Shown here: piece by piece, positions 9,027 through 64,000 of the stretch
Position numbering within the stretch: position 1 is the first letter of the stretch
Layout: each line of letters starts with the position of its first letter
From: Pseudomonas vanderleydeniana
Lineage (GTDB): Bacteria; Pseudomonadota; Gammaproteobacteria; Pseudomonadales; Pseudomonadaceae
Direction of reading: 5' to 3'
Assembly: GCF_014268755.2 (NCBI RefSeq)
Contig: NZ_CP077093.1
Coordinates: 4,142,001 to 4,206,000, forward strand
DNA: 64,000 nt
Notes under the pieces: model-generated
Told to the model about the DNA's origin: nothing
The model's database searches: none
Seen by the model: only the letters and a program-made list of their open reading frames with translations
Program-made: the position numbers and the translations under genes

Positions 9027-9246
9027 CGTATGAATTCCTCTCACATTCATCTGTGGTTTCGGCGGTTAGGCTCGCCGTCAAATCGACATCAAGAGTGGCG
9101 AGGCAGAGCGGTTTAGACAAATGAATGGAAATGAAGGGAATTTCAGTTCTTATCTAAAAGATCCTTCATGTTGGTGAAAGCCAAACGTTAAGTTCCAGCG
9201 GCAAGACTGCCGGGGTTTGCAATTCCACTCTCCGGAGGTCCAAGGC

Positions 9247-48916: not shown

Positions 48917-50226
48917 GACGCGTGCTGCACTGGCCGCGCACCTTGGCCTCGCGGCTGTCGCTGATTTTCCTGGTGTGCCTGATCCTGGCCCAGGCGTTGT
49001 CGTTCGGCGCGCAATCCTACGAGCGCTACGAAAGTGCCAAGAATGCCATGCTGGGCAACCTGGAGACCGACGTCTCGACCTCGATCGCCATTCTCGAGCG
49101 CCTGCCGGCGGTGGAGCGCGAGAGCTGGCTGCCGCGCCTGGCGCGAAAGAACTATGGCTACCTGCTCAACGAGGGTGAACAGGGCATGCCCATGAGTCCG
49201 GGCGATCTGCCCATCGCCGTCCCCTCGATCGAAGAAGCCCTGGGACCGGATTACCCGGTAACTTTCAGCGACATCCCCGGACCGAAGAAGCACTTCCAGG
49301 CACACCTGACCCTCAAGGACGGCAGCCCGGTGACCATCGACGTGCGCCCCTCCCTGGCGCCCATGTCGCCCTGGCTGCCGGCCGTGCTGCTCGGGCAGTT
49401 GCTGCTGATGCTCGGCTGCACCTGGCTGGCGGTGCGGATCGCCGTGCGCCCGCTGACCCGCCTGGCCCAGGCGGTGGAGAACCTCGACCCCAACGCCCAC
49501 GCCGTGCAGTTGGACGAAAGCGGGCCCTCGGAAGTCGCCCACGCCGCCACTGCGTTCAACGCCATGCAAAAACGCATCGCCGACTACCTCAAGGAGCGCA
49601 TGCAGCTGCTGGCAGCCATTTCCCATGACCTGCAAACGCCCATCACCCGGATGAAGCTGCGCGCCGAATTCATGGACGAGTCGCCGGAGAAGGACAAGCT
49701 CTGGCAGGACCTGGGCGAGATCGAGCACCTGGTCCGCGAGGGCGTCGCCTATGCCCGCAGCGTGCATGGCGCAACCGAGCTCAGTTGCCGCATCGACCTG
49801 GACTCGTTCCTCGACAGCCTGGTGTTCGACTACCAGGATACTGGCCAGGCAGTCGAGCTGACGGGCAAGAACGGCGCACTGATCGAAGTCCGCCCCCATG
49901 CCCTGCGCCGGGTGCTGGTCAACCTGGTGGACAACGCCCTGAAGTTCGCCGGTGCCGCGCAACTGGAAGTGCGTTCGAAGACCAACCAGGGCATCTCGAT
50001 CCTGATTCTCGACCGTGGCCCCGGGATCGCCGAGGCGGAGCTGCAGGAAGTGCTCAAGCCGTTCTACCGCGTGGAAAGCTCACGCAACCGCAGCACCGGC
50101 GGCACCGGCCTGGGCCTGGCGATCGCGCAGCAACTGGCCGTGGCCCTGGGCGGTTCGCTGACCCTGAGCAACCGTGAAGGTGGCGGGCTTTGCGCCGAAC
50201 TGCAGCTGGGTGTCGTACGCCCCTGA
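48913..50226 (+). CDS. Membrane sensor histidine kinase (EnvZ-like layout)
   Basis: 437 residues: TM1 (about 13-33), a periplasmic domain of about 110 residues, TM2 (about 152-176), HAMP, phospho-acceptor His238 in AAISHDLQTPITRMKLR and a HATPase domain (NLVDNALKFAG, DRGPGIAEAEL, GTGLGLAIAQQLA). It is the cognate kinase of the regulator it overlaps. The sensed signal is unknown. Confidence 0.95.
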   Translation: MRRVLHWPRTLASRLSLIFLVCLILAQALSFGAQSYERYESAKNAMLGNLETDVSTSIAILERLPAVERESWLPRLARKNYGYLLNEGEQGMPMSPGDLPIAVPSIEEALGPDYPVTFSDIPGPKKHFQAHLTLKDGSPVTIDVRPSLAPMSPWLPAVLLGQLLLMLGCTWLAVRIAVRPLTRLAQAVENLDPNAHAVQLDESGPSEVAHAATAFNAMQKRIADYLKERMQLLAAISHDLQTPITRMKLRAEFMDESPEKDKLWQDLGEIEHLVREGVAYARSVHGATELSCRIDLDSFLDSLVFDYQDTGQAVELTGKNGALIEVRPHALRRVLVNLVDNALKFAGAAQLEVRSKTNQGISILILDRGPGIAEAELQEVLKPFYRVESSRNRSTGGTGLGLAIAQQLAVALGGSLTLSNREGGGLCAELQLGVVRP

Positions 50227-50335
50227 TCGGTGGCTCTCGCCTGCCCCGGCAACGGGGCATACCTGGGCGCGCGATTTAGCTATGCTAGGGCACTTTTTCC
50301 AGTGCCCGCTTTCAGAGCTACCAGGAACACCACCC

Positions 50336-50731
50336 ATGGCAGACCGCGAAATCATCGTTCCAGCCTCCATGCAGAACATCGTCGAACGAGCGGGCTACGC
50401 GCCAGCTGTCAAGGTCGGGACGACACTGTATTGCGCAGGACAGGTCGGCCGCACAGCGGCCCTGGAAGTGATCCAGGATCCCGAGGCCCAGTTCCTCGCC
50501 TGCTGGGAAAACCTGCGCCTGGTTCTGGAAGCCGGTGGCTGCCGCTTTGACGACGTGGTCGACATGACCACCTATCATGTCAATATGAGCCAACACATGG
50601 CAGTCTTTCGAGAGGTCAAGAATCGTGTTTTTCCGCGCGGGCACTGTGCCTGGACGTCGATCGGCGTCTCGGAACTGGCGCACCCCGGCCTGCTGGTGGA
50701 GATCAAGTGCGTGGCGGTACAGCGCAGTTGA
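50336..50731 (+). CDS. RidA family protein
   Basis: 131 residues of the Rid fold: KVGTTLYCAGQVGR, then CWENLRLVLEAGGCRFDDVVDMTTYHVNM and the C-terminal ELAHPGLLVEIKCVAV. The Arg-containing segment before the last strand is replaced (RGHCAWTSIGVSELAHPG), so it is a divergent Rid protein rather than canonical RidA. It follows the kinase gene on the same strand after 109 bases with its own ATG at MADREI. The substrate is unknown. Confidence 0.85.
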   Translation: MADREIIVPASMQNIVERAGYAPAVKVGTTLYCAGQVGRTAALEVIQDPEAQFLACWENLRLVLEAGGCRFDDVVDMTTYHVNMSQHMAVFREVKNRVFPRGHCAWTSIGVSELAHPGLLVEIKCVAVQRS

Positions 50732-50751
50732 ATCGTCCCTGCCTCATCCCT

Positions 50752-50774
50752 GGCACCCGACTTCGGTCGGTGCC
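50752..50774 (+). terminator. Hairpin with TTCG loop between ridA-like and ppnN genes
   Basis: GGCACCCGAC (50752-50761), loop TTCG and GTCGGTGCC (50766-50774) form a 9-bp stem with one bulged C and the stable UUCG tetraloop. It lies 20 bases after the RidA-like stop and 60 before ppnN. No U-run follows, so it may be an attenuator or mRNA end structure. Confidence 0.4.
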
Positions 50775-50834
50775 GGCCGTTCTGACGCTACCGGTGCATT
50801 AACCTCCGGCCGCGTTGCTTTCATGGAATAGAGA

Positions 50835-52208
50835 ATGACCCAACGATCCGTAATCAATGCCTCGGTCAGCCCCAAGGGCAGCCTTGAAACCCTTTCCCAG
50901 CGTGAAGTGCAGCAACTGAGCGAAGCCGGCTCCGGCAGCATCTACACGCTCTTTCGCCAGTGCGCCCTGGCCATCCTCAACACCGGCGCCCATGTCGACA
51001 ATGCCAAGACCATCCTCGAAGCCTACAAGGACTTCGAGATCCGTATTCACCAGCAGGATCGCGGCGTACGCCTGGAACTGCTCAATGCCCCGGCGGACGC
51101 CTTCGTCGACGGCGAGATGATCGCCAGCACCCGGGAAATGCTCTTCAGCGCCCTGCGCGACATCGTCTACACCGAAAACGAACTGGGCAGCCAGCGCATC
51201 GACCTGGACAGCTCCCAGGGCATCACCGACTACGTCTTCCACCTGCTGCGCAACGCGCGCACCCTGCGCCCGGGCCTGGAGCCGAAGATGGTGGTGTGCT
51301 GGGGTGGCCACTCGATCAGCAGCGAGGAATACCAGTACACCAAGAAGGTCGGCCACGAACTGGGCCTGCGCAGCCTGGACATCTGCACCGGCTGCGGCCC
51401 GGGGGTAATGAAAGGCCCGATGAAGGGCGCAACCATCTCCCACGCCAAGCAACGCATCACCACCGGCCGTTACCTGGGCCTGACCGAGCCGGGCATCATC
51501 GCCGCCGAGGCGCCGAACCCGATCGTCAACGAACTGGTGATCATGCCCGACATCGAGAAGCGCCTGGAGGCCTTCGTGCGGGTCGGCCACGGCATCATCA
51601 TCTTTCCGGGCGGTGCCGGTACGGCGGAGGAATTCCTCTACCTGCTGGGCATCCTGATGCACCCGGAAAACCGCGACCTGCCCTTCCCGGTGATCCTCAC
51701 CGGCCCGCGCAGCGCCGAGGCCTACCTGCAGCAGCTGCATGCCTTCGTCGGCGCGACGCTGGGTGAAGAGGCGCACAAGCACTACCAGATCATCATCGAC
51801 AACCCGGCGCAGGTCGCCCGGGAAATGGCCCAGGGCCTCAAGGCGGTCAAGCAGTTCCGCCGCGAGCGCAACGACGCCTTCCACTTCAACTGGCTGCTGA
51901 AGATCGACGAAGGCTTCCAGCACCCGTTCGACCCGACCCACGCCAACATGTCCAGCCTCAAGCTGCATCGCAACCAACCGCCCCACGAACTGGCGGCCAA
52001 CCTGCGCCGGGCGTTCTCCGGCATCGTCGCCGGCAACGTCAAGGACAAGGGTATCCGCCTGATCGAAGAGCATGGCCCGTACGAGATTCACGGTGATGCC
52101 GAGGTCATGCAGCCGCTGGACAAACTGCTCCAGGCCTTCGTGGCCCAGCACCGGATGAAACTGCCGGGTGGCGCGGCCTACGAGCCTTGCTACCGAGTGG
52201 TCAGCTGA
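50835..52208 (+). CDS. ppnN: Pyrimidine/purine-5'-nucleotide nucleosidase PpnN
   Basis: 457 residues, matching E. coli YgdH/PpnN in length and layout: an N-terminal DUF4478-like domain, a central LOG/lysine-decarboxylase-like Rossmann domain with VVCWGGHSISSEEY, CTGCGPGVMKGPMKGA and the catalytic PGGAGTAEEFLYLLG, and a C-terminal DUF3412-like domain (DEGFQHPFDPTHANM). The enzyme cleaves nucleoside monophosphates to base and ribose-5-phosphate and in E. coli is stimulated by (p)ppGpp. It is followed by a long hairpin. Confidence 0.95.
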   Translation: MTQRSVINASVSPKGSLETLSQREVQQLSEAGSGSIYTLFRQCALAILNTGAHVDNAKTILEAYKDFEIRIHQQDRGVRLELLNAPADAFVDGEMIASTREMLFSALRDIVYTENELGSQRIDLDSSQGITDYVFHLLRNARTLRPGLEPKMVVCWGGHSISSEEYQYTKKVGHELGLRSLDICTGCGPGVMKGPMKGATISHAKQRITTGRYLGLTEPGIIAAEAPNPIVNELVIMPDIEKRLEAFVRVGHGIIIFPGGAGTAEEFLYLLGILMHPENRDLPFPVILTGPRSAEAYLQQLHAFVGATLGEEAHKHYQIIIDNPAQVAREMAQGLKAVKQFRRERNDAFHFNWLLKIDEGFQHPFDPTHANMSSLKLHRNQPPHELAANLRRAFSGIVAGNVKDKGIRLIEEHGPYEIHGDAEVMQPLDKLLQAFVAQHRMKLPGGAAYEPCYRVVS

Positions 52209-52218
52209 CCGATCAGCG

Positions 52219-52262
52219 TTGAAGTCCTTGCTCATCGAGTTCTCCGATGAGCAAGACTTCAA
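52219..52262. terminator. Long bulged hairpin after ppnN
   Basis: TTGAAGTCCTTGCTCATCG (52219-52237) pairs with CGATGAGCAAGACTTCAA (52245-52262) over 18 bp with one bulged C and a 7-base loop. It is a likely transcription end for ppnN, although the U-run is poor. It abuts the Fur-box-like site of the next operon. Confidence 0.55.
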
Positions 52263-52264
52263 TT

Positions 52265-52283
52265 GATAATACTTCTCAATACT
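52265..52283 (+). promoter_or_regulatory. Fur-box-like site upstream of the ECF sigma gene
   Basis: The 19 bases beginning GATAATACTT agree with the Fur consensus GATAATGATAATCATTATC at about 12 positions, including the full left GATAAT. It lies about 20-70 bases before the possible sigma-factor starts. Iron-repressed expression of a FecI-type sigma factor is the usual arrangement, so the site is plausible on position as well as sequence. Confidence 0.5.
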
Positions 52284-52338
52284 AGTAGAGTCGCGCCCGC
52301 TGTTCATGACTCACTTTCAGGGCGTCTCTACTCTTCAC

Positions 52339-52845
52339 ATGGCCGAGCCAGACTCCAAGCTCGATATCTACCTCGCCAATCGCCAGGCCCTGGTCGACTA
52401 TGTCGCGCCTATCGTCGGCGGCCAGGCCCAGGCTGAAGACGTGGTACAGGATGCCTGGCTGCGTTTCGATGCGCGTGACACCCGCCCCGTGCAACGGCCG
52501 GTAGCCTACCTCTACCGCATCGTGCGCAACCTGGCCCTGGACCTGACTCGGCGCCTGCACAGCGACAAGTACCAGCCCGGCGGCGCCGAACTGCTGGAGA
52601 CCCTGGTCGCAGCCACGCCATCGCCCGAACACCAGCTGTATCACCAGGACGAACTGAGCCAACTGGAAGACGCCCTGGCCGAGTTGCCCGAACGCACCCG
52701 CATCGCCTTCGAAATGCATCGACTGGGCGGCTGCACCCTCCAGCAGGTCGCCAACCACCTGGGCATCTCCGTCGGCCTGGCCCACTCGCTGGTACGCACC
52801 GCCCTCACCCATTGTGCCGAGCGACTGGGAGAAGGCGATGAGTAA
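52339..52845 (+). CDS. FecI-type ECF sigma factor
   Basis: 168 residues from MAEPDSKLDIYL; an ATG 33 bases upstream (52306) is an alternative start. Region 2 is visible as ALVDYVAPIVGGQAQAEDVVQDAWLRF and RPVAYLYRIVRNLALDLTRR, region 4 as LAELPERTRIAFEMHRLGGCTLQQVANHLGISVGLAHSLVRTAL. It belongs to the iron-starvation ECF group. Its stop overlaps the FecR-like gene by 8 bases, and it should transcribe the receptor operon downstream. Confidence 0.93.
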   Translation: MAEPDSKLDIYLANRQALVDYVAPIVGGQAQAEDVVQDAWLRFDARDTRPVQRPVAYLYRIVRNLALDLTRRLHSDKYQPGGAELLETLVAATPSPEHQLYHQDELSQLEDALAELPERTRIAFEMHRLGGCTLQQVANHLGISVGLAHSLVRTALTHCAERLGEGDE

Positions 52846-53884
52846 TGCGACAATGAGCCTCCATCAAGCCAGCAAGGACCGTGTGCCAATGAAGGCCTCC
52901 CTCACCGACGACCCGGTCTGGAACACCGCCCTGGACTGGCTCGAACGCGTCCAGCAAGCCCCGCAAGACACGGCCCTGCAAGCGGCCTGCGCCGCCTGGC
53001 AGGCCGCCGCGCCCGAGCATGCCGCCGCCTGGCGCAAGGCCGAGCGCGTCTGGCGTTTGAGCGGTGGTCTGTCCGCCCGCCATGCCGAGCACTGGAGCTC
53101 CGCCCCGGCGGTGACCAGCCAACAGCCGACGGCTGTACTGCCCATGCGGCGCATACCGCGTCCCCGGCGTCGGGCCTGGATCGGCACGGCGGTCGCCGCC
53201 GCCCTAGTGCTCGCCCTCCTGCCTGCGCTGCCCCACCGGCACGCCGACTACGCCAGCGGTGTGGGCGAGATGCGCCTGGTACAACTCAGTGACGGGACGC
53301 GGGTCACCCTCGGCAGCGACAGCGCCCTGGTCGATCACTTCAACGATGGCCAGCGCAATGTTGAACTGCTGCACGGCGAAGCCTTCTTCGATGTCACCCC
53401 GGACCCGCAACGCCCTTTCACCGTGACCGCCGGCAGTGGTGCGGTGCGCGTGACCGGCACCGCCTTCGAGGTACGTCTTGCGCCCGAGCGCCTGAACGTC
53501 GCCGTCACCCACGGTGCGGTCAAGGTCAGCGACGGGCGTCTGCATTCCGATGCGTTGGACACCGCTCTGACCGCCGGCGACCAGATACAGTTGGATTACG
53601 ACGCCAAGCGCCTGCAGCGCAATCACCTGCAACCGACCCAGATCGCCAGTTGGCGGCAAGGACAACTGGTCGCCGATGACCAGAGCATCGGTGAACTGGT
53701 GAGTGAACTGCGCCGCTACCATCGCGGGCTCATCCTGCTGCCCGACGATGCCCTGGCCGCCGAGAAGGTCACCGGCGTCTACGACCTGCGCAATCCGCAG
53801 GCCGCACTGCGCGCCCTGGTCCAGGCCCATGGTGGCCAACTGCGGACTTGGTCCGACTATCTCTGGGTCATTTCGCGCTCCTGA
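52838..53884 (+). CDS. FecR-like anti-sigma regulator
   Basis: About 348 residues: an N-terminal DUF4880/anti-sigma domain (DDPVWNTALDWLERVQQAP, ALQAACAAWQAAAPEHAAAWRKAERVW), one membrane helix (AWIGTAVAAALVLALLPAL) and a periplasmic FecR domain (GEMRLVQLSDGTRVTLGSDSAL, GEAFFDVTPDPQRPFTVTAGSGAVRVTGTAFEVR). The C-terminal DUF4974 region ends LWVISRS and would contact the receptor signalling domain. GGAG precedes ATG 52838, which overlaps the sigma gene. Confidence 0.93.
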   Translation: MSNATMSLHQASKDRVPMKASLTDDPVWNTALDWLERVQQAPQDTALQAACAAWQAAAPEHAAAWRKAERVWRLSGGLSARHAEHWSSAPAVTSQQPTAVLPMRRIPRPRRRAWIGTAVAAALVLALLPALPHRHADYASGVGEMRLVQLSDGTRVTLGSDSALVDHFNDGQRNVELLHGEAFFDVTPDPQRPFTVTAGSGAVRVTGTAFEVRLAPERLNVAVTHGAVKVSDGRLHSDALDTALTAGDQIQLDYDAKRLQRNHLQPTQIASWRQGQLVADDQSIGELVSELRRYHRGLILLPDDALAAEKVTGVYDLRNPQAALRALVQAHGGQLRTWSDYLWVISRS

Positions 53885-53890
53885 AACCCT

Positions 53891-53919
53891 GGGCAGGCCG
53901 TTTGTTTACCGGCCTGCCC
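53891..53919 (+). terminator. Hairpin after fecR-like gene
   Basis: GGGCAGGCCG (53891-53900) and CGGCCTGCCC (53910-53919) pair exactly around a 9-base loop, 7 bases after the FecR-like stop. It lacks a following U-run. It separates the sigma/anti-sigma transcript from the receptor operon, consistent with a separate sigma-dependent promoter downstream. Confidence 0.55.
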
Positions 53920-53962
53920 ACCCTCCCGTGACACCCGCCTGAAATTATTTTCACTATTTTCT

Positions 53963-53986
53963 GAAAATTTCCCGAAGCACTGCGTC
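53963..53986 (+). promoter_or_regulatory. Candidate FecI-type ECF promoter of the receptor operon
   Basis: GAAAAT (53963-53968) is followed after 14 bases by CGTC (53983-53986). This resembles the GAAAT/CGTC pattern recognised by iron-starvation ECF sigma factors. It lies about 80 bases upstream of the receptor ATG in the AT-rich gap after the hairpin. The match is short and the assignment is inference. Confidence 0.4.
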
Positions 53987-54066
53987 ATTTGCCTGCGACG
54001 CACTTGAGATGCGTTCGCATTTTAGTTCGCGTATGCGTTCAGCAGTGCAACGGGGAGTAGCAACGA

Positions 54067-57006
54067 ATGACGATTTCCAGGACGGCGCCTTTCGAACGAG
54101 CGACCGACAAACGACTGCTCGGCCGCTCCGGCCAGTGGCTGGGCGCCATGGGGCTGGTGGGAGTCCTGGTGAGTGCCAGTGTCTGCGCCGAAGACCTCAA
54201 GCAGCTCGCCGTGAGCCAACGCCTGGAACAACGTTTCGATTTTGACATTCCCGCCCAGTCGCTGGCCGGTGCCCTGATTGCCTTCGGCCAGCAGGCCGGC
54301 ATCCAGATCAGCAGCGACAGCGCCCTGCTGCGCAACCGCGACTCCGTCGGTGCCCATGGCACCCTCTCGGCCCGCGATGCATTGGTCGACCTGCTGCACG
54401 GCAGCGGTGTGCGCTGGCAGCTCAACCCTGCCGCCGACACCCTGGTCCTCGAGGAAATTCCGGTAACCGACGCCTATCGCCAGAGCACCCATGAAGTACT
54501 GGTCACCGAGAACATCGTGGTGCTGGGCACGCCACAGGAAAGCGGTTTCCAGGGTGAAACGGTGATCGACCGCCGGGCCATCGAAGCCTTTCCCGGTGCC
54601 AACGGCGACATCACCACCCTGCTGCAGATGCACCCCAGCGTGAAATTTCGCGCCGACGAAAAGAGCTCCAACACCGCCGGTGAGATCGACCCCGCGGATA
54701 TCAGCATCAACGGCGCCAAGTACTACCAGAACAACTTCATGATCGATGGGATCAGCATCAACAACGACCTGGATCCCGGCAGTCATACCTGGAACGACTA
54801 CAACCGGATCGAGGGCCTGCCTAGCCGCGCCCACGGTATCGCCCTGGACGCCGACCAACTGGAGTCGGTCAAGGTCTACGACAGCAATGTGCCGGCCGAA
54901 TATGGGGGATTCAATGGCGGGGTGGTGGATGCCATCACCCGCCGTCCAACCGAAGACCTGCATGGCAAGGTGTCGATGAACATGACCCGTTCGTCCTGGA
55001 CCCGATTCCATATCGCCGACGACCAGCGCAGTACCTTCGAACAGTCGAGCGATGCACAGAACCAGCCGGAATTCCGCAAGTTCACCTACAAGGCTACCCT
55101 CGAAGGGCATCTCACCGAAAACTTCGGCCTGATGGCGAACTTCTCCCGTAAAACCTCGATCATTCCGCTCAATGCCTACGACAACGGTTACCAGAGCGGC
55201 ACCGATGACGGAAAACACGATCAGCACCGACAGATCGACAACTACATTCTCAAAGGTTTTTGGACCCCCAGCGATCGCCTCGAAACCAAATTCAACATCA
55301 CCCATGCACCGCAGGAAGGTGAATACTTCCGCTCCAACACCCGCGACTCGGCCACAGTGATTCACCAGGGCGGCTACCAGGCATCGCTGCAGGCGATCTG
55401 GCTCGGTGATCAGGCCACCTACACCCACAAGCTCGCGTATACCAACCTGGAAAGCTCGAGGACCTCCGACAGTAGCATCTACAAGTCCTGGCGCTGGTCC
55501 GAGGAGAAGAACTGGGGCAACCCGTATCGCAACGGAGTCCTCAGCACGGCGGCCACCAGTGCCGAAGGTGGCATGGGCGACTTGAACCAGACCCAGGTCG
55601 GTGCCACCTACAGCGTCAAGGCGGAATGGCTGCCGGTGCAGCTTTGGGGCACCAACCACAACTTCCAGACCGGCCTGGAACTGAGCCAGCAGACAGCGAC
55701 CTACGAGCGCCCGAGCGATGTCTGGACCGCCACCACCCTAGGGGTGGGCGCCTCCAACGGCAGCCTGACCTGCAATACCGCCAGCGGAGCTCTCGACAGT
55801 GAATACTGCTCCATCGCCAAGAACCCGCTCGGGGCCTTGACTCGCCAGTACTTCCGCAGCTTGAACTACTATCGTGAAGGCAAGATCGAACTCACCGAAC
55901 GGCGTTACGGTTTGTTTGCCCAGGACAGAATCGAGCTGGGCAAACTGACTCTGCGTCCGGGGCTACGCCTGGACGTCGACGACTACATGGACAAGAAAAC
56001 CCTGGCGCCACGCTTCTCCGCGGAGTACGACGTCTTTGCCGACCGCTCCACTGTACTGACCGGTGGCCTGAACCGCTATTACGGACGCAACCTGTTCATC
56101 TACCGCCTGGCCGATGGACGGGAGGCACTGCGTTGGCGTCGTACCCGCGGCGCAGCCAGCGGCACCACCATTCCGGACTTCGCCGGCTGGGTCAACTATG
56201 GCGTCGACGAAAACTCGTTCCGCAAGCTGGACATTCCCTACGACGACGAGGTCATGCTGGGCATCAGCCAGCGCTGGTTCGATACAACCTTCGACCTCAA
56301 GTACGTGCACCGCCAGGGCAAGGACCAGGTGGTGCGCTCGACCGCAAGAAACCTCGACCTGCCGACCGGCGATGGAGTCAGCACCATCGCCAACTACTAC
56401 ACCTACACCAACAAGGGCAAAAGCGAGAGCGAGAACGTCAGCCTGACCGTCAGCCCGGACTGGCGAATCAAGGGCCTGGGAACATCAACCTCGATGCAAC
56501 TGGCCTTGGACTGGAACCGTACCCGCAGTACCCACACAGACTATCAGCAAGTGCTCTCCGCCTCGGAAGTCGACGATAACGATGTTCTTTACGACGGTAA
56601 GGTGACCGCCTACAGCGAATTGCCTACCAGCGACTTCAACCGACCATGGACGGCCCGCCTGACTGCAATCACCGAGATGCCGGCCCTGCACCTGACCTGG
56701 AGCAACTTCCTGCGCTATCGCGGCCCATACCAGCAGATCGTCAACACCGGCAAGACCGCCAGCCTGCCCAACTCAGAAGGCGGCCTGACGACCTACGACG
56801 TCTACGAGGCCGCCACCGTCAAGGCCGCCCCCACCTGGGACACCCGCCTGTACTGGGAGATACCGACCGCTCACGAACAGGCAGTCTTCGCCGCCGTCGA
56901 CATCACCAACGTCCTGGACAAGGTGTCGCCCATCGTCAGCTATTCCGGCACTACCACCTACGAGATCGGCCGTCAGTACTGGCTGGAAGTCGGCTACCGC
57001 TTCTAG
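54067..57006 (+). CDS. TonB-dependent outer-membrane receptor with STN signalling domain
   Basis: 979 residues. Signal peptide (cleavage near 41), then an STN signalling domain (about 55-130: FDFDIPAQSLAGALIAFGQQAGIQI), a TonB box (EVLVTE, 143-148), plug (GDITTLLQMHPSVKFRAD, GAKYYQNNFMIDGISINNDL, ESVKVYDSNVPAEYGGFNGG) and a 22-strand barrel ending in the terminal Phe (WLEVGYRF). Two Cys in LTCNTASGALDSEYCSI may cross-link an extracellular loop. The STN domain ties it to the FecI/FecR pair; the following protease and ABC genes suggest a peptide or protein ligand rather than a small siderophore. Confidence 0.93.
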   Translation: MTISRTAPFERATDKRLLGRSGQWLGAMGLVGVLVSASVCAEDLKQLAVSQRLEQRFDFDIPAQSLAGALIAFGQQAGIQISSDSALLRNRDSVGAHGTLSARDALVDLLHGSGVRWQLNPAADTLVLEEIPVTDAYRQSTHEVLVTENIVVLGTPQESGFQGETVIDRRAIEAFPGANGDITTLLQMHPSVKFRADEKSSNTAGEIDPADISINGAKYYQNNFMIDGISINNDLDPGSHTWNDYNRIEGLPSRAHGIALDADQLESVKVYDSNVPAEYGGFNGGVVDAITRRPTEDLHGKVSMNMTRSSWTRFHIADDQRSTFEQSSDAQNQPEFRKFTYKATLEGHLTENFGLMANFSRKTSIIPLNAYDNGYQSGTDDGKHDQHRQIDNYILKGFWTPSDRLETKFNITHAPQEGEYFRSNTRDSATVIHQGGYQASLQAIWLGDQATYTHKLAYTNLESSRTSDSSIYKSWRWSEEKNWGNPYRNGVLSTAATSAEGGMGDLNQTQVGATYSVKAEWLPVQLWGTNHNFQTGLELSQQTATYERPSDVWTATTLGVGASNGSLTCNTASGALDSEYCSIAKNPLGALTRQYFRSLNYYREGKIELTERRYGLFAQDRIELGKLTLRPGLRLDVDDYMDKKTLAPRFSAEYDVFADRSTVLTGGLNRYYGRNLFIYRLADGREALRWRRTRGAASGTTIPDFAGWVNYGVDENSFRKLDIPYDDEVMLGISQRWFDTTFDLKYVHRQGKDQVVRSTARNLDLPTGDGVSTIANYYTYTNKGKSESENVSLTVSPDWRIKGLGTSTSMQLALDWNRTRSTHTDYQQVLSASEVDDNDVLYDGKVTAYSELPTSDFNRPWTARLTAITEMPALHLTWSNFLRYRGPYQQIVNTGKTASLPNSEGGLTTYDVYEAATVKAAPTWDTRLYWEIPTAHEQAVFAAVDITNVLDKVSPIVSYSGTTTYEIGRQYWLEVGYRF

Positions 57007-57062
57007 GCGGTAGCCGTTCCCACAAGGCCGACCACCCCAACCGAAAACAGCCCGAGCCCTTC

Positions 57063-59846
57063 ATGATCAAGACATTCTGTACAGGCCTGGCCGGCCTGCT
57101 GCTGTTGACCGCCTGCGCCTCACGGCCAGCCACCACCGAACTGCCCTGGGACGACCGCCTGCACCGCGGTACCCTGAGCAATGGCCTGGAGTACTGGCTG
57201 CTGCCCGACCACAGCCAGCCAGGCCGCGTCGACCTGCGCCTGCTGGTGAAGGCCGGCTCGGTGGACGAAAGCGGCGAACGCACCGGCGTTGCCCACCTGC
57301 TGGAACACCTCTCGTTCTATCAACGCGGCAGTCTGCCCGGTACCGTGCGCCAGAGCCTTTTGGCGGCAGGCTGGAAGCAAGGACAGAACTTCAATGCCGT
57401 TACCAGCAACGACCGTACCCAGTATTTCTTCAGCCCGGCCGCCGGCAAGGCGCAGTTGGAACTGGGCCTGCAAGCACTGGCCACTATCGGTGGCCCGGTG
57501 GACTTCACTGCTGCGGACCTACAGCAGGAGCGTCCGATCGTCCTCGAGGAATGGCGCGGCGGCCTGGGCGTCGCCCAACGTATGAACGAGCAACGCCGTG
57601 ACGCCCAACGGGTCGGTTCGCGCTACGTCAATCACCCACCCATCGGTAGCAAGGAGGGCATCGAAACCGCCCAGTGGGCCGACCTGTCGACCTTTCACCA
57701 GCGTTGGTACGTGCCGGGCAACATGCAGTTGGTGATCACCGGCGATATCGACCCCGCCACCCTGCCAGCGCGCTTGGACCACTGGTTCGGCCAGTTGCCC
57801 ACAGCCGCCACGCCCACCCGTGACTATCTGGAACTGCCCCTGCGCAAGCAATTGAACATCGCCCAGGTGCAGGACAGCCAGAGCGGCGGTAGCAACGTCG
57901 CCTTGATGTTCCGCTTCCACGAAGCCGATGCCCGGGCTGCCACCACCGAAGGCATGCGCCAGCGCCTGATCAACCGTCTGGTACTGTCACTGGCCCAACA
58001 GCAACTGGTTCGCCAGGGCCGCGAGAACGACTCGGGCGTACGCAGCCTGACCCTGCAGAAACACCTGATCGGCCAGGCCTCCACGGTGCTTGCGGTTGGT
58101 GCCGGGGTCAGTGCCAACGGCCATGAGTCTGGCCTGCAGAAAGTCCTTGAAGAGATTGCCCGCCTGCGCCGCAACGGTTTTGACGAGCAGCAGTTTCAGG
58201 AACAGAAGGCGGCGCTACGTGAAGTTGCCCAGAGCATGCTCAAGAAAGGCGACGATCGTGACTTCGTCGAATGGGTACGCCGCCTCAACGATGCCGCCGT
58301 GCAGGACAATCGCGTAGTCCGTCCGAGTACCATCGCCAACCTGACCCTGCACCTGCTCGACGATATCCGGCTCACTGAGCTGAACCAGCGTTGGAACGAC
58401 TGGACCGACCAGCCGGATCGTGTCCTCCAGTACCAGGCACCCGGGCTCACGCCCGTGCAACTGCCCAGCGTCGAGCACGTAGAGTCTACCATTGCCCAGT
58501 GGCGGGCAGCCCCCCTGCCCCCAGCACCGGCCAAGGTCGAAGAGCCGGCCGAACTGCCGAGCCTGCCGATCCCGCAAACAGCGGGACAGGTGGTCAGCAA
58601 ACAACACTTCGACGCCGAACAGGTCGAACACTGGCAACTGAGCAACGGCGATCGCTTGGTCTGGCTCAAGCGTGCCGGTGCTGGCGGCAAGGCACAGTTG
58701 CGCATCGACTCGCCCTCCGGCTACCTGGCCAAGGGACTGGTGCCGTGGCAAGCGCAGACGGCCGCACAACTGCTCTCACAGAGTGCGCCGCAAGGCTGGA
58801 ACGAGGCTCAGTTGAAACGCTGGCGCAGCACCCAGGACGTCAGTCTCGGCCTGAGCAGCGAAGCCCTTCGGCTGACTTTCACCGGCCAGGCTTCGGGAGC
58901 CCGGCTGGAACCCCTGCTGGCTCTCTACAACACCTGGCAAACCCACCCCTGGATCGATCCGCAGGCCATGGACGATAGCCTGGAGCAAATGCGCGACGGC
59001 CTGTCACGCCAAACCGACAGCGTCTCGCTCCAGCAAACCCAAGCCCTGGCGCGGTTGCGCTTCGCGCCGCGATCAACCCTGCAACCCGATGCCGAACAAC
59101 TGGCCACTGTGAGCCAAAAGGACCTGCTCGACCAATGGCAACGCATGAGTCGCAGCCCTGTCACCTACTACCTGATGAGCGATGTCGACGCCCAGCAACT
59201 GGAAGCTGGCGTCACTCGCTACCTGGCCAACATCCCACGCGGCCAGGCACTGTCATCCCGCGATGCTGCACCGCTCGCCGGAGCTCGCCGGAAAACCCTG
59301 GCAGTTGCCCTGGAACCACGGGCCAACCTGCAAGCCTACAGTTTCAGTGAAATGCCCTGGAGCCCGACGCAGGCCGCCGCCATCTCACTGCTTGGGCGCA
59401 TGGCCCAAGAAGATCTCAAGGCCAAGTTACGCGGCGAGGCCGGTGGTGTGTATCGCCTGGCCTTCGACAGTGAGCTGGGTCAGGACACTCAGCGTATCGA
59501 CAGCCGCCTGGCGTTCACCACCGACCCTCAGCGCCTGGATGAGCTTCGGCAAATGGCCGCCGACGTGCTCGCCCAACTGCCGCAACGCATCAACGCCGAG
59601 AGCGTCGCCGCCTTGCGCAAGCAATTGCAGGCCCAGGAACGCGAACGGCTGAACGATCCGCAGACCCAACTCCACCGGCTGATCCTCAGCGAACGAGCCT
59701 ATGGCGATCCACGCTACCTGAGTGAGCAACGGCAACTGGCGCAGAGCCTGCAACCGGCAACCCTCAAGGCCTTGGCCAAACACCTCTGGAACCCGGCCAA
59801 CCTGCGCGAATTGCAAGTACTGCCAGCCACCGGAGCACGTCCATGA
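57063..59846 (+). CDS. M16 zinc metallopeptidase lipoprotein (PqqL/FusC-like)
   Basis: 927 residues with a lipoprotein signal (LLLLTAC, lipid Cys18). The inverted zinc motif HLLEH (78-82) lies in GERTGVAHLLEHLSFY, with the distal Glu in ERPIVLEEWRGG near 162. Two M16 halves of the clam-shell type follow (second half from about 530). Length and context match E. coli PqqL and Pectobacterium FusC, which degrade imported ferredoxin-like proteins in the periplasm. Lipidation is a difference worth noting. Its stop overlaps the ABC gene by 4 bases; the ATG is 57 bases after the receptor stop. Confidence 0.92.
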   Translation: MIKTFCTGLAGLLLLTACASRPATTELPWDDRLHRGTLSNGLEYWLLPDHSQPGRVDLRLLVKAGSVDESGERTGVAHLLEHLSFYQRGSLPGTVRQSLLAAGWKQGQNFNAVTSNDRTQYFFSPAAGKAQLELGLQALATIGGPVDFTAADLQQERPIVLEEWRGGLGVAQRMNEQRRDAQRVGSRYVNHPPIGSKEGIETAQWADLSTFHQRWYVPGNMQLVITGDIDPATLPARLDHWFGQLPTAATPTRDYLELPLRKQLNIAQVQDSQSGGSNVALMFRFHEADARAATTEGMRQRLINRLVLSLAQQQLVRQGRENDSGVRSLTLQKHLIGQASTVLAVGAGVSANGHESGLQKVLEEIARLRRNGFDEQQFQEQKAALREVAQSMLKKGDDRDFVEWVRRLNDAAVQDNRVVRPSTIANLTLHLLDDIRLTELNQRWNDWTDQPDRVLQYQAPGLTPVQLPSVEHVESTIAQWRAAPLPPAPAKVEEPAELPSLPIPQTAGQVVSKQHFDAEQVEHWQLSNGDRLVWLKRAGAGGKAQLRIDSPSGYLAKGLVPWQAQTAAQLLSQSAPQGWNEAQLKRWRSTQDVSLGLSSEALRLTFTGQASGARLEPLLALYNTWQTHPWIDPQAMDDSLEQMRDGLSRQTDSVSLQQTQALARLRFAPRSTLQPDAEQLATVSQKDLLDQWQRMSRSPVTYYLMSDVDAQQLEAGVTRYLANIPRGQALSSRDAAPLAGARRKTLAVALEPRANLQAYSFSEMPWSPTQAAAISLLGRMAQEDLKAKLRGEAGGVYRLAFDSELGQDTQRIDSRLAFTTDPQRLDELRQMAADVLAQLPQRINAESVAALRKQLQAQERERLNDPQTQLHRLILSERAYGDPRYLSEQRQLAQSLQPATLKALAKHLWNPANLRELQVLPATGARP

Positions 59847-61543
59847 ACACCCTGCGCATCTTCTTCCGGCTGGCCTGGCCGTACTGGCGCAGCCGCCAGC
59901 AGTGGGTATCCTGGCTGCTGTTGGGCAGCGTGATCGCCATGGGCCTGCTGATCGTGCAGATCAACGTCTGGATCAACGCCTGGAGCAAGACCTTCTACGA
60001 CACCCTGGGCGCCTTTGACACCTCGGCGCTGTATCGGTTGATGGGTGAATATGTGATCTATCTCGCCGCCTTCGTGCTGATCGCGGTGTACAAGAACTGG
60101 TTGCACAAGGCTCTCCTGCTGCGCTGGCGCCAGAGCATGACCGAGCAGGTCATCGGCCGCTGGCTCGATGATCATGCGTTCTATCGCATAGGTCACCAGG
60201 GCGAGCCGGACAACCCAGACCAGCGTATCGCCGAAGACATCAAGCGCCTGGTCGAGAGCAGTGTCAGCCTGTTGGTGTCGTTCATCACCAACTTCGCCCA
60301 GGCCGGAGCGTTCCTCGGCATTCTCTGGCAACTGTCCGGCACCCAGACCTTCAGCGCCGGCAGCTACAGTGTGACACTGGACGGCTACCTGGTCTGGATC
60401 GCAGCTATTTATACCGTGGTCGGCACGGCGATCACCCACTGGATTGGCCGGCCGTTACATCGCCTGAACTACGAGCAGCAGCACCGCGAGGCCGACCTGC
60501 GTGCCGACCTGCTGCGCAAGCGCGACAATGCTGAGCAGATCGCCCTGTATCGCGGTGAAACGGTGGAGGCGCATCAGCTCAAGGCACGTTTCGCACGAAT
60601 CGCCGACAACTGGCGGGCACTGATGAACCGCGAGCGCGACCTGAACTTTTTCACCGTCAGCTACGACCGGATCAGCCTGATCATCCCGGTGTTCGCCGCC
60701 TTGCCCGCGTTCCTCGCCAAGACCATTACCCTGGGCGGGCTGATGCAGATCCGCAGTGCCTTCGGCGCCGTGCAGAACTCGCTTAGTTGGTTTATCGGCG
60801 CCTACCGGCTGATCATGGACTGGAGCGCCACGGTCGAACGCCTGGGGCAATTCCATAACGCCCTGGAGCAGGCGCACGCCGAACGCCCGCAACCCGCCGT
60901 CGGCAGCCGACTGCAACTGCGCTCGGCAAGCGTGCTGCTGCCCAATGGCAACCCGCTGCTGGAAGACCTGAGCCTGAACTTGCAACCGGGTACCTGGCTG
61001 CGCCTGGCCGGACCGAGCGGCCTGGGCAAATCGACACTGCTGCGTACCCTTGGCGGAGTCTGGCCCTTCCATTGCGGCCACTGGCAACTGCCTCCTGGCC
61101 GTAGCCTGCTGCTACCGCAAAAAGCCTATTTGGCCACTGATCGACTGGACCGACTGCTGGCCTACCCATCCAACGAGGTACCCGAGGAAAGTGAGCTGCG
61201 CGAGATACTGCAGGCAGTCGGCCTTGGCGTCCTGCAGGATCAACTGGAGCGCGAGACCGAATGGCCCCGCGAACTCTCGGGTGGCGAACAACAACGCCTG
61301 GCCTTCGCCCGTGCTCTGCTCTACCGACCTGACACACTCTATCTGGACGAAGCCACCAGCCAGTTGGATGAAGTCTCCGCCCGCTCGCTGTTGCTGCTGC
61401 TCAGAACGCACCTGCCCCAATGCAGCGTGATTGCCGTTAGTCACCAACCGGCAGTGCAGGCGTTGTTCGAACAGACATTGGACCTTCAGTCCCACCAACA
61501 CAAGGCACCGGCCAAATACCTGGAACCGGAAGCGGCGCTCTAA
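59843..61543 (+). CDS. SbmA/BacA-like ABC transporter with fused ATPase (YddA/FusD-like)
   Basis: 566 residues: an N-terminal six-helix membrane domain of the SbmA/BacA type (LIVQINVWINAWSKTFYDTL, RIAEDIKRLVESSVSLL) and a C-terminal ATPase with Walker A GPSGLGKSTLL, signature LSGGEQQRLAFARAL and Walker B TLYLDEATS. E. coli YddA has this layout and sits beside yddB and pqqL. Its role would be to move peptide or degradation product or cofactor across the inner membrane; the direction is not proven. It overlaps the M16 gene by 4 bases (ATGA). Confidence 0.9.
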   Translation: MNTLRIFFRLAWPYWRSRQQWVSWLLLGSVIAMGLLIVQINVWINAWSKTFYDTLGAFDTSALYRLMGEYVIYLAAFVLIAVYKNWLHKALLLRWRQSMTEQVIGRWLDDHAFYRIGHQGEPDNPDQRIAEDIKRLVESSVSLLVSFITNFAQAGAFLGILWQLSGTQTFSAGSYSVTLDGYLVWIAAIYTVVGTAITHWIGRPLHRLNYEQQHREADLRADLLRKRDNAEQIALYRGETVEAHQLKARFARIADNWRALMNRERDLNFFTVSYDRISLIIPVFAALPAFLAKTITLGGLMQIRSAFGAVQNSLSWFIGAYRLIMDWSATVERLGQFHNALEQAHAERPQPAVGSRLQLRSASVLLPNGNPLLEDLSLNLQPGTWLRLAGPSGLGKSTLLRTLGGVWPFHCGHWQLPPGRSLLLPQKAYLATDRLDRLLAYPSNEVPEESELREILQAVGLGVLQDQLERETEWPRELSGGEQQRLAFARALLYRPDTLYLDEATSQLDEVSARSLLLLLRTHLPQCSVIAVSHQPAVQALFEQTLDLQSHQHKAPAKYLEPEAAL

Positions 61544-61552
61544 CTCCCTTGC

Positions 61553-61590
61553 CAGTGTTCTACATCAAGGACACTGGTAATACCCCCTCC
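61553..61590 (+). terminator. Weak hairpin after the ABC transporter gene
   Basis: CCAGTGT (61553-61559) pairs with ACACTGG (61572-61578) over 7 bp around a 12-base loop, about 10 bases past the stop, followed by TAATACCCC. This could end the receptor operon. The remaining bases to 61676 show nothing else I can support. Confidence 0.4.
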
Positions 61591-61676
61591 CAATCGCCTG
61601 TGAGAAACCTCAACGGCTCGACTCTAACAATTGAAGGCCAAGGGAAAGCCCCCATTCTTGGCCCCTTAACATTTAA

Positions 61677-61883
61677 GCCGCTTTCAAAGAGGCCGTGGAC
61701 GACTGCCTCCAGACCTGCCAGCAACTGAAGCAGGCTCCAGAAATACCGTGCAAGGGATCTTTCAACGTGCGAGTCGGGCATGACCTGCACCTGGCGGCAG
61801 CCCTGAGTGCCAATCGGCAGAACATGACACTCAATGACCTGACCCGCCAGGCACTCAGTGAATACCTGCAGCGTCGCGCCTGA
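61677..61883 (+). pseudogene. HicB-like antitoxin remnant (C-terminal part)
   Basis: An open frame after a TAA at 61674 encodes AAFKEAVDDCLQTCQQL, then CKGSFNVRVGHDLHLAAALS and LNDLTRQALSEYLQRRA. This matches the linker and ribbon-helix-helix C-terminus of HicB antitoxins (F.G.F.VR...LH..AA..A). The degenerate substrate-binding half and a start codon in frame are missing; a GTG at 61695 could give 62 residues. No HicA toxin is adjacent. It is best read as a decayed toxin-antitoxin locus. Confidence 0.65.
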
Positions 61884-61895
61884 CCCTATCGCCGA

Positions 61896-62660
61896 TCAGC
61901 GACTCGCCACCACGAACAACCGTGGGAACGGCAGCAGCACGCTGCCATCGGGCAGTGCCGGATAGGCTTCGCTGATCGCCGCCAGGTAGCGCTCCAGGTA
62001 GGCAGCCTTTTCAGCCTCGTCCAGCGGCGCCAGGTAGGGCCGCAATGCAGAGCCCTTGAACCACTCCACCACGGCTGCATGGCCACCCGCCAGCGGATGG
62101 TGGTAGGTGGTGCGCCAGACATCCACACTGGCGCAGTGCGGCTTCAGCAACTCGTAGTAGAAAGCCGCATCATGCCGCGGTGGATGCCGTACCGCGCCGA
62201 TCTTCGCGGCCCAGGGGCCCTCGGCCGCTACCTCGCGCGCCAGCCTGTGGGACGGTTCCTGCATGTTGTCGGGGGTTTGCACCGCCAGGCTGCCGCCACT
62301 TGCCAATCGGCTCACCAGGCGCGGGTACAGGCTGGCGTGATCCGGCAGCCATTGCAGTGAGGCGTTGGCGAGAATCACGTCGAACGCCTGATCCGGATTC
62401 CAGGTGGCGATGTCGGCCAGCTCGAAACTCAAGCCGGGCAGGCGTGCCCGGGCGCTGACGAGCATGTCGTCGGAACTGTCCATGCCGGTGACGCGGGCCT
62501 CGGGAAAACGTTCGGCCAGCACCTCGGTGGAGTTGCCGGGCCCGCATCCCAGGTCCACCGCCACCCGCACGTCGCGGGTTGGAATCGCCGCCACCAGATC
62601 ACGTACCGGGCGGGTGCGTTCGGCTTCGAAGGTTGAATACTGCTTGGCTGACCAGGTCAT
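61896..62660 (-). CDS. tam: Trans-aconitate 2-methyltransferase
   Basis: 254 residues, close to E. coli Tam. The SAM-binding motif I is VAVDLGCGPGNSTEVLAERFP, followed by GMDSSDDML, FDVILANASLQWLPDH and LLPFPRLFVVASR at the C-terminus. The enzyme methylates trans-aconitate, an inhibitor of the TCA cycle formed from cis-aconitate. The start is the ATG at 62660; a GTG one codon upstream is less likely. It is divergent from the broken lysR gene. Confidence 0.9.
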   Translation of the reverse strand: MTWSAKQYSTFEAERTRPVRDLVAAIPTRDVRVAVDLGCGPGNSTEVLAERFPEARVTGMDSSDDMLVSARARLPGLSFELADIATWNPDQAFDVILANASLQWLPDHASLYPRLVSRLASGGSLAVQTPDNMQEPSHRLAREVAAEGPWAAKIGAVRHPPRHDAAFYYELLKPHCASVDVWRTTYHHPLAGGHAAVVEWFKGSALRPYLAPLDEAEKAAYLERYLAAISEAYPALPDGSVLLPFPRLFVVASR

Positions 62661-62763
62661 CACGCTTCCTCTTTGTGTTCAGGGAATGCGCACAGCGTAG
62701 GTTTTGCAAAGCATGATGACAAATGCCAATAATGACGAACTGCCATACCTTCAGGGTATCAAA

Positions 62764-63671
62764 ATGCTTGAACTGCGTCGCCTGCAGGCGTTTGTCGCCA
62801 TCGCCGAAGAAGGCCATATCACCCGGGCGGCCGAACGCCTGAACATGCAACAACCCCCCTGACCCGGCTGCTGCAGAAACTCGAAGCCGAACTGGGGGTG
62901 ACGTTGATGGAGCGCCTGCCGCGCGGTGTGCGCCCGACCACCGCCGGCCTGGCCTTGCTCGAAGAAGCCCGGGACCTGCTGGCACGTGCCAACGCCGTAC
63001 CCGAGATCGTCCGTCGCGCCGCCCGTGGCGAACAGGGCCGTCTCGGTGTCGGCTTTACCAGCTCGGCGGCGCTGCATCCGTTCGTCCCGGGGGTGCTGCG
63101 GCACTTTCGCGAGACCTTTGGCGGCGTCTCGGTCGCCCTGGAGGAAGCCGGCACTGGCGAATTGATGGATGCCCTGGTGCACGAACGCCTGGACGCGGCG
63201 TTCGTCCGCTCCCCCTTGAGCGGTACGCCAACCCTGCAAGCCGAACCGATCCTGACGGAGCCCATGTTGCTGGCGCTACCCATGGACCATCCCCTGGCAC
63301 AGGACTCCGACACGGCGCTGCCCCTGGCCGCCCTGGCTGGTGAGGCTTTTGTCCTGTATCGGCGGCGAGTCGGCCTGGGGCTCTACGATGCCATCCTGGT
63401 GGCCTGTCGCGAGGCGGGGTTCAGCCCCCGGGTGATCCAGGAAGCGCCGCGCATGGCCGCGACCCTGAGCCTGGTCGCTGCGGGGCTCGGGGTCTCCATC
63501 GTCCCGGCGTCGATGCAGCGGCTGCGTGGCGATGGCATCGCCTACCGCCCCTTGAGCGGTTGCCCGGGATTGATGGCGCCGCTGCACCTGGCGACCCGGA
63601 TCGGCGACAGCTCGGCGGTCCTGCGGCGCTTTCGCGAACTGGTTGCCCAGGCGGCCGCTGCCGAACACTGA
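62764..63671 (+). pseudogene. LysR family regulator broken by a frameshift in a poly-C run
   Basis: The first 32 codons from ATG 62764 give a normal LysR helix-turn-helix start (MLELRRLQAFVAIAEEGHIT, RAAERLNMQQPP) and then hit TGA at 62860. The stop follows six C (62854-62859); one more C would join it to the downstream frame, which continues LTRLLQKLEAELGVTLMERL and an intact effector domain to 63671 (ERLDAAFVRSPL, PLAALAGEAFVLYRR). The full protein would be about 302 residues. It may be a true pseudogene, a phase-variable switch, or a sequencing error. Confidence 0.85.
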
Positions 63672-63678
63672 CCTCCCC

Positions 63679-64000
63679 TCAGTTCCCTCGCCCACCGGCA
63701 AACGACCACTCATCCGCCGCGGTGGTGGTGATCACCACCATCACATCCTCCGGATCCAACCCGGGCGCCACGTGCAGGCGTTCCACCAGGGTCCGGTAGA
63801 ACGCCTGTTTCACTGACGTTTCCCGCTGCCGTCCGGCCGTAATCGCAATCAGCACGTAGTCGTGACTGCGTGGGCCGCCGAGGTAATGCGCGTCAAAAAT
63901 CAGTTCGCCCGGTTCATGCTGATGAATGACCTGGAAACGATCCGTAGGCGGCACATCGAAACTCTCCACCAGTGCCTCATGCAGGCTCTGGGACAGCATC
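63679..64000 (-). CDS. Tautomerase family protein (partial, N-terminus outside window)
   Basis: About 106 residues are visible, from MLSQSLHEALVESFDVPPTD to AADEWSFAGGRGN. The pattern DRFQVIHQHEPGEL, HDYVLIAITAGRQRETSVKQAFYRTLVERL and DVMVVITTTAADEWSF is that of the tautomerase/MSAD-like family. The catalytic N-terminal Pro and the first strand should lie beyond the right edge, so the Met at 63999 is probably internal. It is convergent with the broken LysR gene (7 bases apart). Confidence 0.8.
   Translation of the reverse strand, partial: MLSQSLHEALVESFDVPPTDRFQVIHQHEPGELIFDAHYLGGPRSHDYVLIAITAGRQRETSVKQAFYRTLVERLHVAPGLDPEDVMVVITTTAADEWSFAGGRGN

Follow-up and report, generated by a model that had tools for sequence, protein, structure and literature searches.

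At positions 52339-61543 of the DNA analysed here, five consecutive plus-strand genes encode, in this order, an extracytoplasmic function (ECF) sigma factor, a FecR protein, a TonB-dependent receptor with an STN signalling domain, an M16 zinc protease and an SbmA/YddA-type ATP-binding cassette (ABC) transporter (Table 1). The window, by which we mean the whole analysed stretch of 64,000 nucleotides, covers positions 4142001-4206000 of the single-contig 7.03 Mb genome of Pseudomonas vanderleydeniana. The stop codon of the sigma gene overlaps the FecR start (ATGAGTAA), the protease stop and the transporter start overlap in ATGA, and 56 bases separate the receptor and protease genes. A preliminary description of this DNA had proposed a five-gene set with these two overlaps, and the open reading frames, the Pfam domains and the match of the receptor to solved STN domains bear it out.

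The closest solved relatives of the receptor and the protease are the ferredoxin receptor FusA and the protease FusC of Pectobacterium, ahead of YddB and PqqL of E. coli. The Fus/PqqL-like character first read from the window is thus supported by the alignments, and neither protein proved to lie far from the fus and ydd systems. The FusA alignment (4zgv) runs from receptor residue 148 to the end and that with YddB (6ofr) from residue 161 to the end. Identity to the E. coli proteins is 27% for YddB, 23% for PqqL and 37% for YddA, and no NCBIfam model scores above its cut-off for the receptor or the protease. The receptor is 94% identical to a protein annotated Pseudomonas asplenii and also 94% identical to one from P. 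fuscovaginae IRRI 6609.

Table 1. Features of the five-gene locus, in window coordinates
Feature	Position	Strand	Basis
FecI-type ECF sigma factor, 168 amino acids	52339-52845	+	Open reading frame (start also possible at 52306); Pfam Sigma70_r2/r4
FecR-type anti-sigma factor/sigma regulator, 348 amino acids	52838-53884	+	Pfam FecR and DUF4880
FusA-type TonB-dependent receptor, 979 amino acids	54067-57006	+	Pfam Plug; FusA 4zgv E 2.4e-98, YddB 6ofr E 1.2e-76
Receptor N-terminal STN signalling domain, residues 54-135	54226-54471	+	Outside the FusA and YddB alignments
Candidate TonB box ENIVVLGT (residue 148)	54508-54531	+	Aligned with the FusA TonB box DTILVRST (PMC7593965)
FusC-type M16 zinc protease, 927 amino acids	57063-59846	+	Pfam Peptidase_M16 and M16_C; FusC 6b03 E 1.7e-193, PqqL 6ofs E 3.6e-52
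Lipobox LTAC with predicted lipid-bearing Cys18	57105-57116	+	N-terminal sequence; lipobox in 46/48 related proteases
Zinc/catalytic motif HLLEH (HxxEH), residues 78-82	57294-57308	+	Present in 48/48 related proteases
SbmA/YddA-type ABC transporter with fused membrane and ATPase parts, 566 amino acids	59843-61543	+	Pfam ABC_membrane_2 / SbmA_BacA and ABC_tran
Fur-box-like site 5' of the sigma gene, GATAATACTTCTCAATACT	52265-52283	+	13/19 to consensus
Putative sigma-dependent promoter for the receptor, protease and ABC genes, TGAAAA-N15-CGTC	53962-53986	+	Conserved motif

Conservation of the gene set

Related loci were drawn from a scan of GTDB genomes, and the counts below refer to the best 80 of 151. 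In the survey for the five-gene set that the preliminary description had suggested, all five genes stand in the same order in 38 of the 80 loci, and two more (L113 and L118) have the same arrangement with the receptor and/or the protease gene split; L118 was automatically tabulated as lacking sigma and FecR because its receptor gene is split. Because 38 loci keep the complete ordered set, the assembly is, judged from gene order, not a product of chance. A FusC-type protease occurs in 48 loci, 46 of which keep the ABC gene (L078 and L082 do not).

Co-occurrence is also seen at the level of genomes. Among 298 Pseudomonas genomes, drawn evenly, the receptor is present in 36 (E 1e-30) and the FusC-type protease in 22 (E 1e-60), all of them within the 36, although 5 of the receptor genomes yielded only distant pieces, about 30% identical. 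In a class-wide sample the receptor was found in at least 4 of 369 genomes (E 1e-25), that of the window included, a count that is a lower bound since the search was loose at first look. None of the other three shows a match to the STN: they begin at receptor residues 163, 147 and 592, the last being partial.

These distributions bear on one alternative, namely that the receptor is an ordinary one for a siderophore or haem, controlled by surface signalling, and that the protease and transporter are simply co-expressed. The sigma-FecR-receptor layout is indeed typical of siderophore uptake, and the STN domain resembles those of FpvA, PupB, FecA and HasR. We nevertheless regard this alternative as decidedly unlikely: solved siderophore and haem receptors match the window receptor over the STN or the STN and plug only, whereas its post-STN part matches FusA and YddB to the end, and at the thresholds used the protease was never found without the receptor in the 298 genomes.

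A surface-signalling module and its predicted promoter

Pfam makes no STN call for the window receptor, although PF07660 is listed in many of its close relatives. The stretch at about residues 54-135 matches solved STN domains, with E values of 1.1e-6 for HasR and 3e-5 for PupB and further matches to FpvA and FecA. An STN-like stretch was found in 74 of the 80 receptors when the best domain was counted, and in 73 when the first listed one was. FecR is adjacent in 68 loci, including 66 of the 74 with an STN-like receptor, and this largely parallel occurrence argues, at the sequence level, that the signalling module is in use. The eight STN loci without adjacent FecR are six of the P. cichorii/viridiflava group, L121, where sigma was detected and FecR was not, and L119, where the contig starts with the receptor. 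Six loci have no detected STN. Two of these have FecR (L099 and L120), two are split (L118 and L116), L114 offers little sequence ahead of the receptor, and L115, for which 9 kb is available upstream, lacks both STN and FecR.

In the P. cichorii/viridiflava group (L051-L054, L056 and L112) the receptor, M16 and ABC genes stand without adjacent sigma and FecR. Loss of the pair can be rejected as an explanation, since a sigma/FecR pair lies elsewhere in all six genomes, with 61-66% identity in the sigma factor; in the two genomes checked for linkage it shares the receptor's contig, ~14 and ~16 kb upstream, and the pair belonging to L112 is on another draft contig. The promoter motif described below is kept at all six loci. 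In the two genomes checked for linkage (L187 and L188) the distance from FecR to the receptor operon is ~12.6 and 14 kb, and ExbD occurs there in L187 and a phytase and another TonB receptor in L188.

The preliminary description had pointed to 53963 for a sigma-dependent reporter, and a promoter-like motif does lie there, between FecR and the receptor gene, within TGAAAATTTCCCGAAGCACTGCGTC (53962-53986). The generalised form TGRAAA-N15-CGTC precedes the receptor in 56 of the 80 loci, as compared with a mean of 0.035 and a maximum of 1 in 200 base shuffles; with any other spacing between 9 and 21 the motif appeared in 0 or 1 loci. It is present in 45 of the 48 loci with a FusC-type protease and in 11 of 31 loci that have a peroxidase gene behind the receptor (see below), several more of which carry near variants such as TGGAAA-N15-AGT. 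The bare TGAAAA-N15-CGTC, counted genome-wide, occurs at 17 sites as against 11 for the reversed control, and we discarded the idea of reading a wider regulon from it, as it gives none by itself.

A Fur-like site lies 5' of the sigma gene. Scored over 19 positions against the Fur consensus, sites of at least 12/19 are found 5' of the sigma gene in 61 of 63 related loci, compared with 7.8% of dinucleotide shuffles. Behind the receptor promoter the window has a further Fur-like site, but it is weak and we make no claim for it. The STN domain, the conserved adjacency, the promoter-like motif and the Fur-like site together uphold, at the level of sequence, the earlier suggestion of direct surface signalling.

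A predicted lipid anchor on the protease

The protease begins with a lipoprotein-type signal with Cys18 (MIKTFCTGLAGLLLLTAC), and the lipidation suggested earlier holds as a sequence prediction, given that a lipobox is found in 46 of the 48 FusC-type proteases (45 by pattern; that of L061, where the anchor differs, by eye). In the protease sequences listed, we saw no Asp following the lipobox cysteine. By the usual sorting rule for lipoproteins the absence of Asp at this position favours the outer membrane, and the FusC-type protease is probably tethered there by its lipid. No lipobox was seen at the N-terminus of E. coli PqqL, which is described as soluble in the periplasm (PMC6793856). FusC has a 25-residue signal sequence, and the word 'lipoprotein' does not occur in the available part of its account (PMC6071955).

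An apparent exchange of the back end

In 31 of the 80 loci a gene with two CxxCH motifs stands behind the receptor. All 31 are alike by similarity to one of them, and Pfam assigns all seven tested to the di-haem cytochrome c peroxidase/MauG family. The peroxidase loci include L089-L098, L101, L102, L104, L105, L107, L108, L110, L111 and L117; one further locus, L119, has neither protease nor peroxidase on its 7 kb contig. The 31 peroxidase loci, of which some lie on short contigs, showed no SbmA/YddA-type ABC gene downstream of the receptor. Because the ABC gene is present in 46 of the 48 protease loci and was seen in none of these, the transporter seems to travel with proteolysis, which fits a role in the import of proteolysis products.

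A peroxidase and a FusC-type protease were not found together behind one receptor in any of the 80 loci. Five Azonexaceae loci combine the peroxidase with a distant M16 protein (61-71 bits; Pfam M16 in both of those tested). Both types of system can occur in one genome. Pseudomonas dryadis P26B has them in tandem (L070:1040-16183), with sigma, FecR, receptor and peroxidase followed by sigma, FecR, receptor, M16 and ABC, and in Stutzerimonas kirkiae P4C the two lie on separate contigs (L082 and L096).

A tree of the receptors, built from the part behind the STN, has 77 rows, of which 47 are M16-type, including the window, and 27 are peroxidase-type, and a single change separates the two. Values from the Shimodaira-Hasegawa-like approximate likelihood ratio test (SH-aLRT) are 100 for the M16 branch and 97 for the peroxidase branch as drawn; the method is a quick one with no bootstrap, and the rooting depends on two long branches of the outgroup. 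The tree omits the four split loci, three loci in which the trimming motif was not found (L114, L115 and L139) and L141, which was not entered. The single split suggests that a common sensing front end acquired a different back end on one occasion. Going by species names, many members of the M16 clade would be plant-associated and many of the peroxidase clade would come from spoiled food or water, a presumed contrast in lifestyle that is confounded by kinship.

The peroxidase loci also bear on the possibility that the protease serves signalling, cutting FecR or the receptor instead of a cargo. Periplasmic proteolysis does activate FecR-type regulators, but the described cleavage of FecR is by Prc and RseP (PMC9249621), and 21 loci keep sigma, FecR and an STN receptor with a peroxidase and no FusC-type protease, 11 of them with the exact promoter motif. 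We therefore reject this role for the protease, which appears highly improbable.

A separate observation concerns nomenclature. A transcriptome paper on P. fragi glosses a 'FUSC family protein' as fusaric acid resistance and discusses it as FusC protease (PMC7921472). The P. fragi locus in our set (L105) is of the peroxidase variant, with no FusC-type protease adjacent.

Proposed mechanism

We consider it likely that the locus encodes a ligand-inducible protease-associated import system (PAIS), whose ligand would most likely be a small iron-containing protein. The gene order, the protein families, the STN domain, the promoter-like motif, the Fur-like site, the lipobox, the catalytic motif and the co-conservation of the genes are the features of the sequence on which this proposal is built, and from them we infer induction by ligand, control by Fur and the sigma factor, and iron as the prize. 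Iron starvation would release Fur and allow the sigma/FecR pair to be made. Binding of this specific extracellular ligand to the FusA-type receptor would then be signalled through the STN domain to FecR, freeing the sigma factor to transcribe the receptor-protease-ABC operon from the TGAAAA-N15-CGTC promoter. Fec and Has provide an experimental model for this signalling part (PMC9249621).

Import and processing may follow the Fus model, in which intact ferredoxin enters the cell and cleavage by FusC releases its cluster (PMC7593965). The receptor would take the whole protein into the periplasm, energised by a general TonB acting on the TonB box, and the FusC-type protease, probably lipid-tethered to the outer membrane, would cut it there. 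The ABC transporter would carry peptide or cofactor products into the cytoplasm, a direction and a cargo that are themselves predictions of the model. That PqqL is iron-regulated (PMC6793856) is in keeping with the proposal.

Several observations weigh against it. The receptor is just 27% identical to YddB, and a section heading on PqqL and YddB in PMC6793856 states that they 'do not support growth' in iron-limited lysogeny broth. Two of the proteases have no regular lipobox (L048 has ASAC and L078 none), and the exact promoter motif is absent from three protease loci (L048, L078 and L082). Ferredoxin import in Pectobacterium needs the dedicated TonB protein FusB (PMC7593965), which has the arginine motif RRxxYP (PMC13253070). 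We found no FusB-like TonB here: of 5 TonB_C matches in the genome, 0 are inside the window and 0 carry RRxxYP. The earlier match to Fus holds for the receptor and the protease. The missing FusB-type TonB speaks against simply equating the locus with Fus. Finally, the 23 colicin-M loci detected in 22 of the 298 Pseudomonas genomes, the one kind of bacteriocin searched, contain no ferredoxin cysteine motif, and so there is no outside hint of ferredoxin as the ligand.

The same components could serve peptide uptake: a secreted peptide, or a metallophore of peptide-like kind, would be sensed and imported by the receptor, trimmed by the protease and taken in by the SbmA-like transporter. The membrane part of the ABC protein belongs to the SbmA/BacA family of peptide transporters, and M16 enzymes cut peptides, an activity that a screen showed for PqqL and FusC (PMC6793856). 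The receptor, on the other hand, belongs to the FusA/YddB group, in which extended loops make a large substrate-binding site (PMC5095587, PMC6793856), and no peptide-synthesis genes were recognised by eye in the window translations, for which no dedicated search was made. On balance we think peptide uptake rather improbable, though the least so of the alternatives weighed here.

A bolder elaboration of the proposed protein import can also be imagined, which we put forward as doubtful. The locus might be a cargo-sensing import machine in which the lipid-anchored FusC-type protease, placed at the receptor exit, would seize and cut the chain as it enters, help in this way to draw it in and replace the dedicated TonB of Fus, while in the sister lineage the di-haem peroxidase would strip iron from the cargo by redox chemistry.

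Implications

In the parts of the literature available to us, no PAIS protein substrate other than the Fus ferredoxin is named, and identifying such substrates is a stated open task (PMC6793856). If the cargo switches on the conserved, putatively sigma-dependent promoter, as it should under the proposed mechanism, this promoter could be used as a reporter to find the ligand of an orphan PAIS, a route that would also be open in non-pathogenic Pseudomonas species. Furthermore, protease and transporter versus di-haem peroxidase, each behind one and the same sensing receptor, offer a natural comparison between what may be two ways of taking iron from a protein.

Other features of the window

No tandem repeats were found at 50000-64000, and no Rfam families or tRNAs in the whole window. 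Three consecutive genes at 9217-15035 resemble, from their first residues, a resistance-nodulation-division (RND) efflux pump with membrane-fusion protein and outer-membrane factor. A short fragment that looks HicB-type by eye lies at 61680-61883, in the interval that separates the ABC gene from its downstream neighbour.

Comparison with known systems

The class of system is already known. PAIS were described in 2019 as FusA-type receptors genetically linked to FusC-type M16 proteases, with a Pseudomonas cluster among the four largest, all of which have FusC (PMC6793856). What differs here is the signalling module, the STN domain and the protease lipobox; the main text of PMC6793856 has neither FecI nor FecR.

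With the Pectobacterium FusABCD system the locus shares its closest solved receptor and protease and an ABC transporter in the cluster (PMC7593965). It differs in that no homologue of the FusB TonB was found, in that the STN domain lies outside the FusA alignment, and in the lipobox of its protease, FusC being described with a signal sequence of 25 residues (PMC6071955). E. coli yddA-yddB-pqqL has three protein kinds in common with the locus, but in another gene order and with no adjacent sigma/FecR; YddB aligns behind the STN only, and PqqL is without a visible lipobox.

In its signalling part the locus resembles FecIRA-type systems (Fec, Pup, Fpv) and HasISR, with a sigma factor, an anti-sigma factor, an STN receptor downstream and a Fur-like site at the sigma gene. 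Among signalling receptors, HasR already engages a protein, namely the hemophore HasA (PMC9249621), so that this feature is not in itself new. The hemophore, moreover, stays outside the cell and is encoded in the same operon, whereas the cargo predicted here would be imported and cut. The peroxidase variant recalls the methanobactin genes mbnIRT and mbnPH (PMC3621798), where sigma, FecR and an STN receptor likewise lie near a di-haem peroxidase; the receptor here, unlike that one, is FusA-type.

Among the literature matches listed, we found no account of surface signalling joined to Fus or PAIS, and hence none of a sigma/FecR pair beside an STN-bearing FusA-type receptor with an ECF-type promoter and a Fur-box-like site, although Figure 2 and Table S1 of PMC6793856 may show sigma/FecR genes. 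Peroxidase genes beside some FusA homologues without FusC have been reported (PMC6793856). Our own observation is the apparent exchange of such a peroxidase for the protease and ABC transporter, with a shared signalling front end and one split between the two types in the receptor tree.

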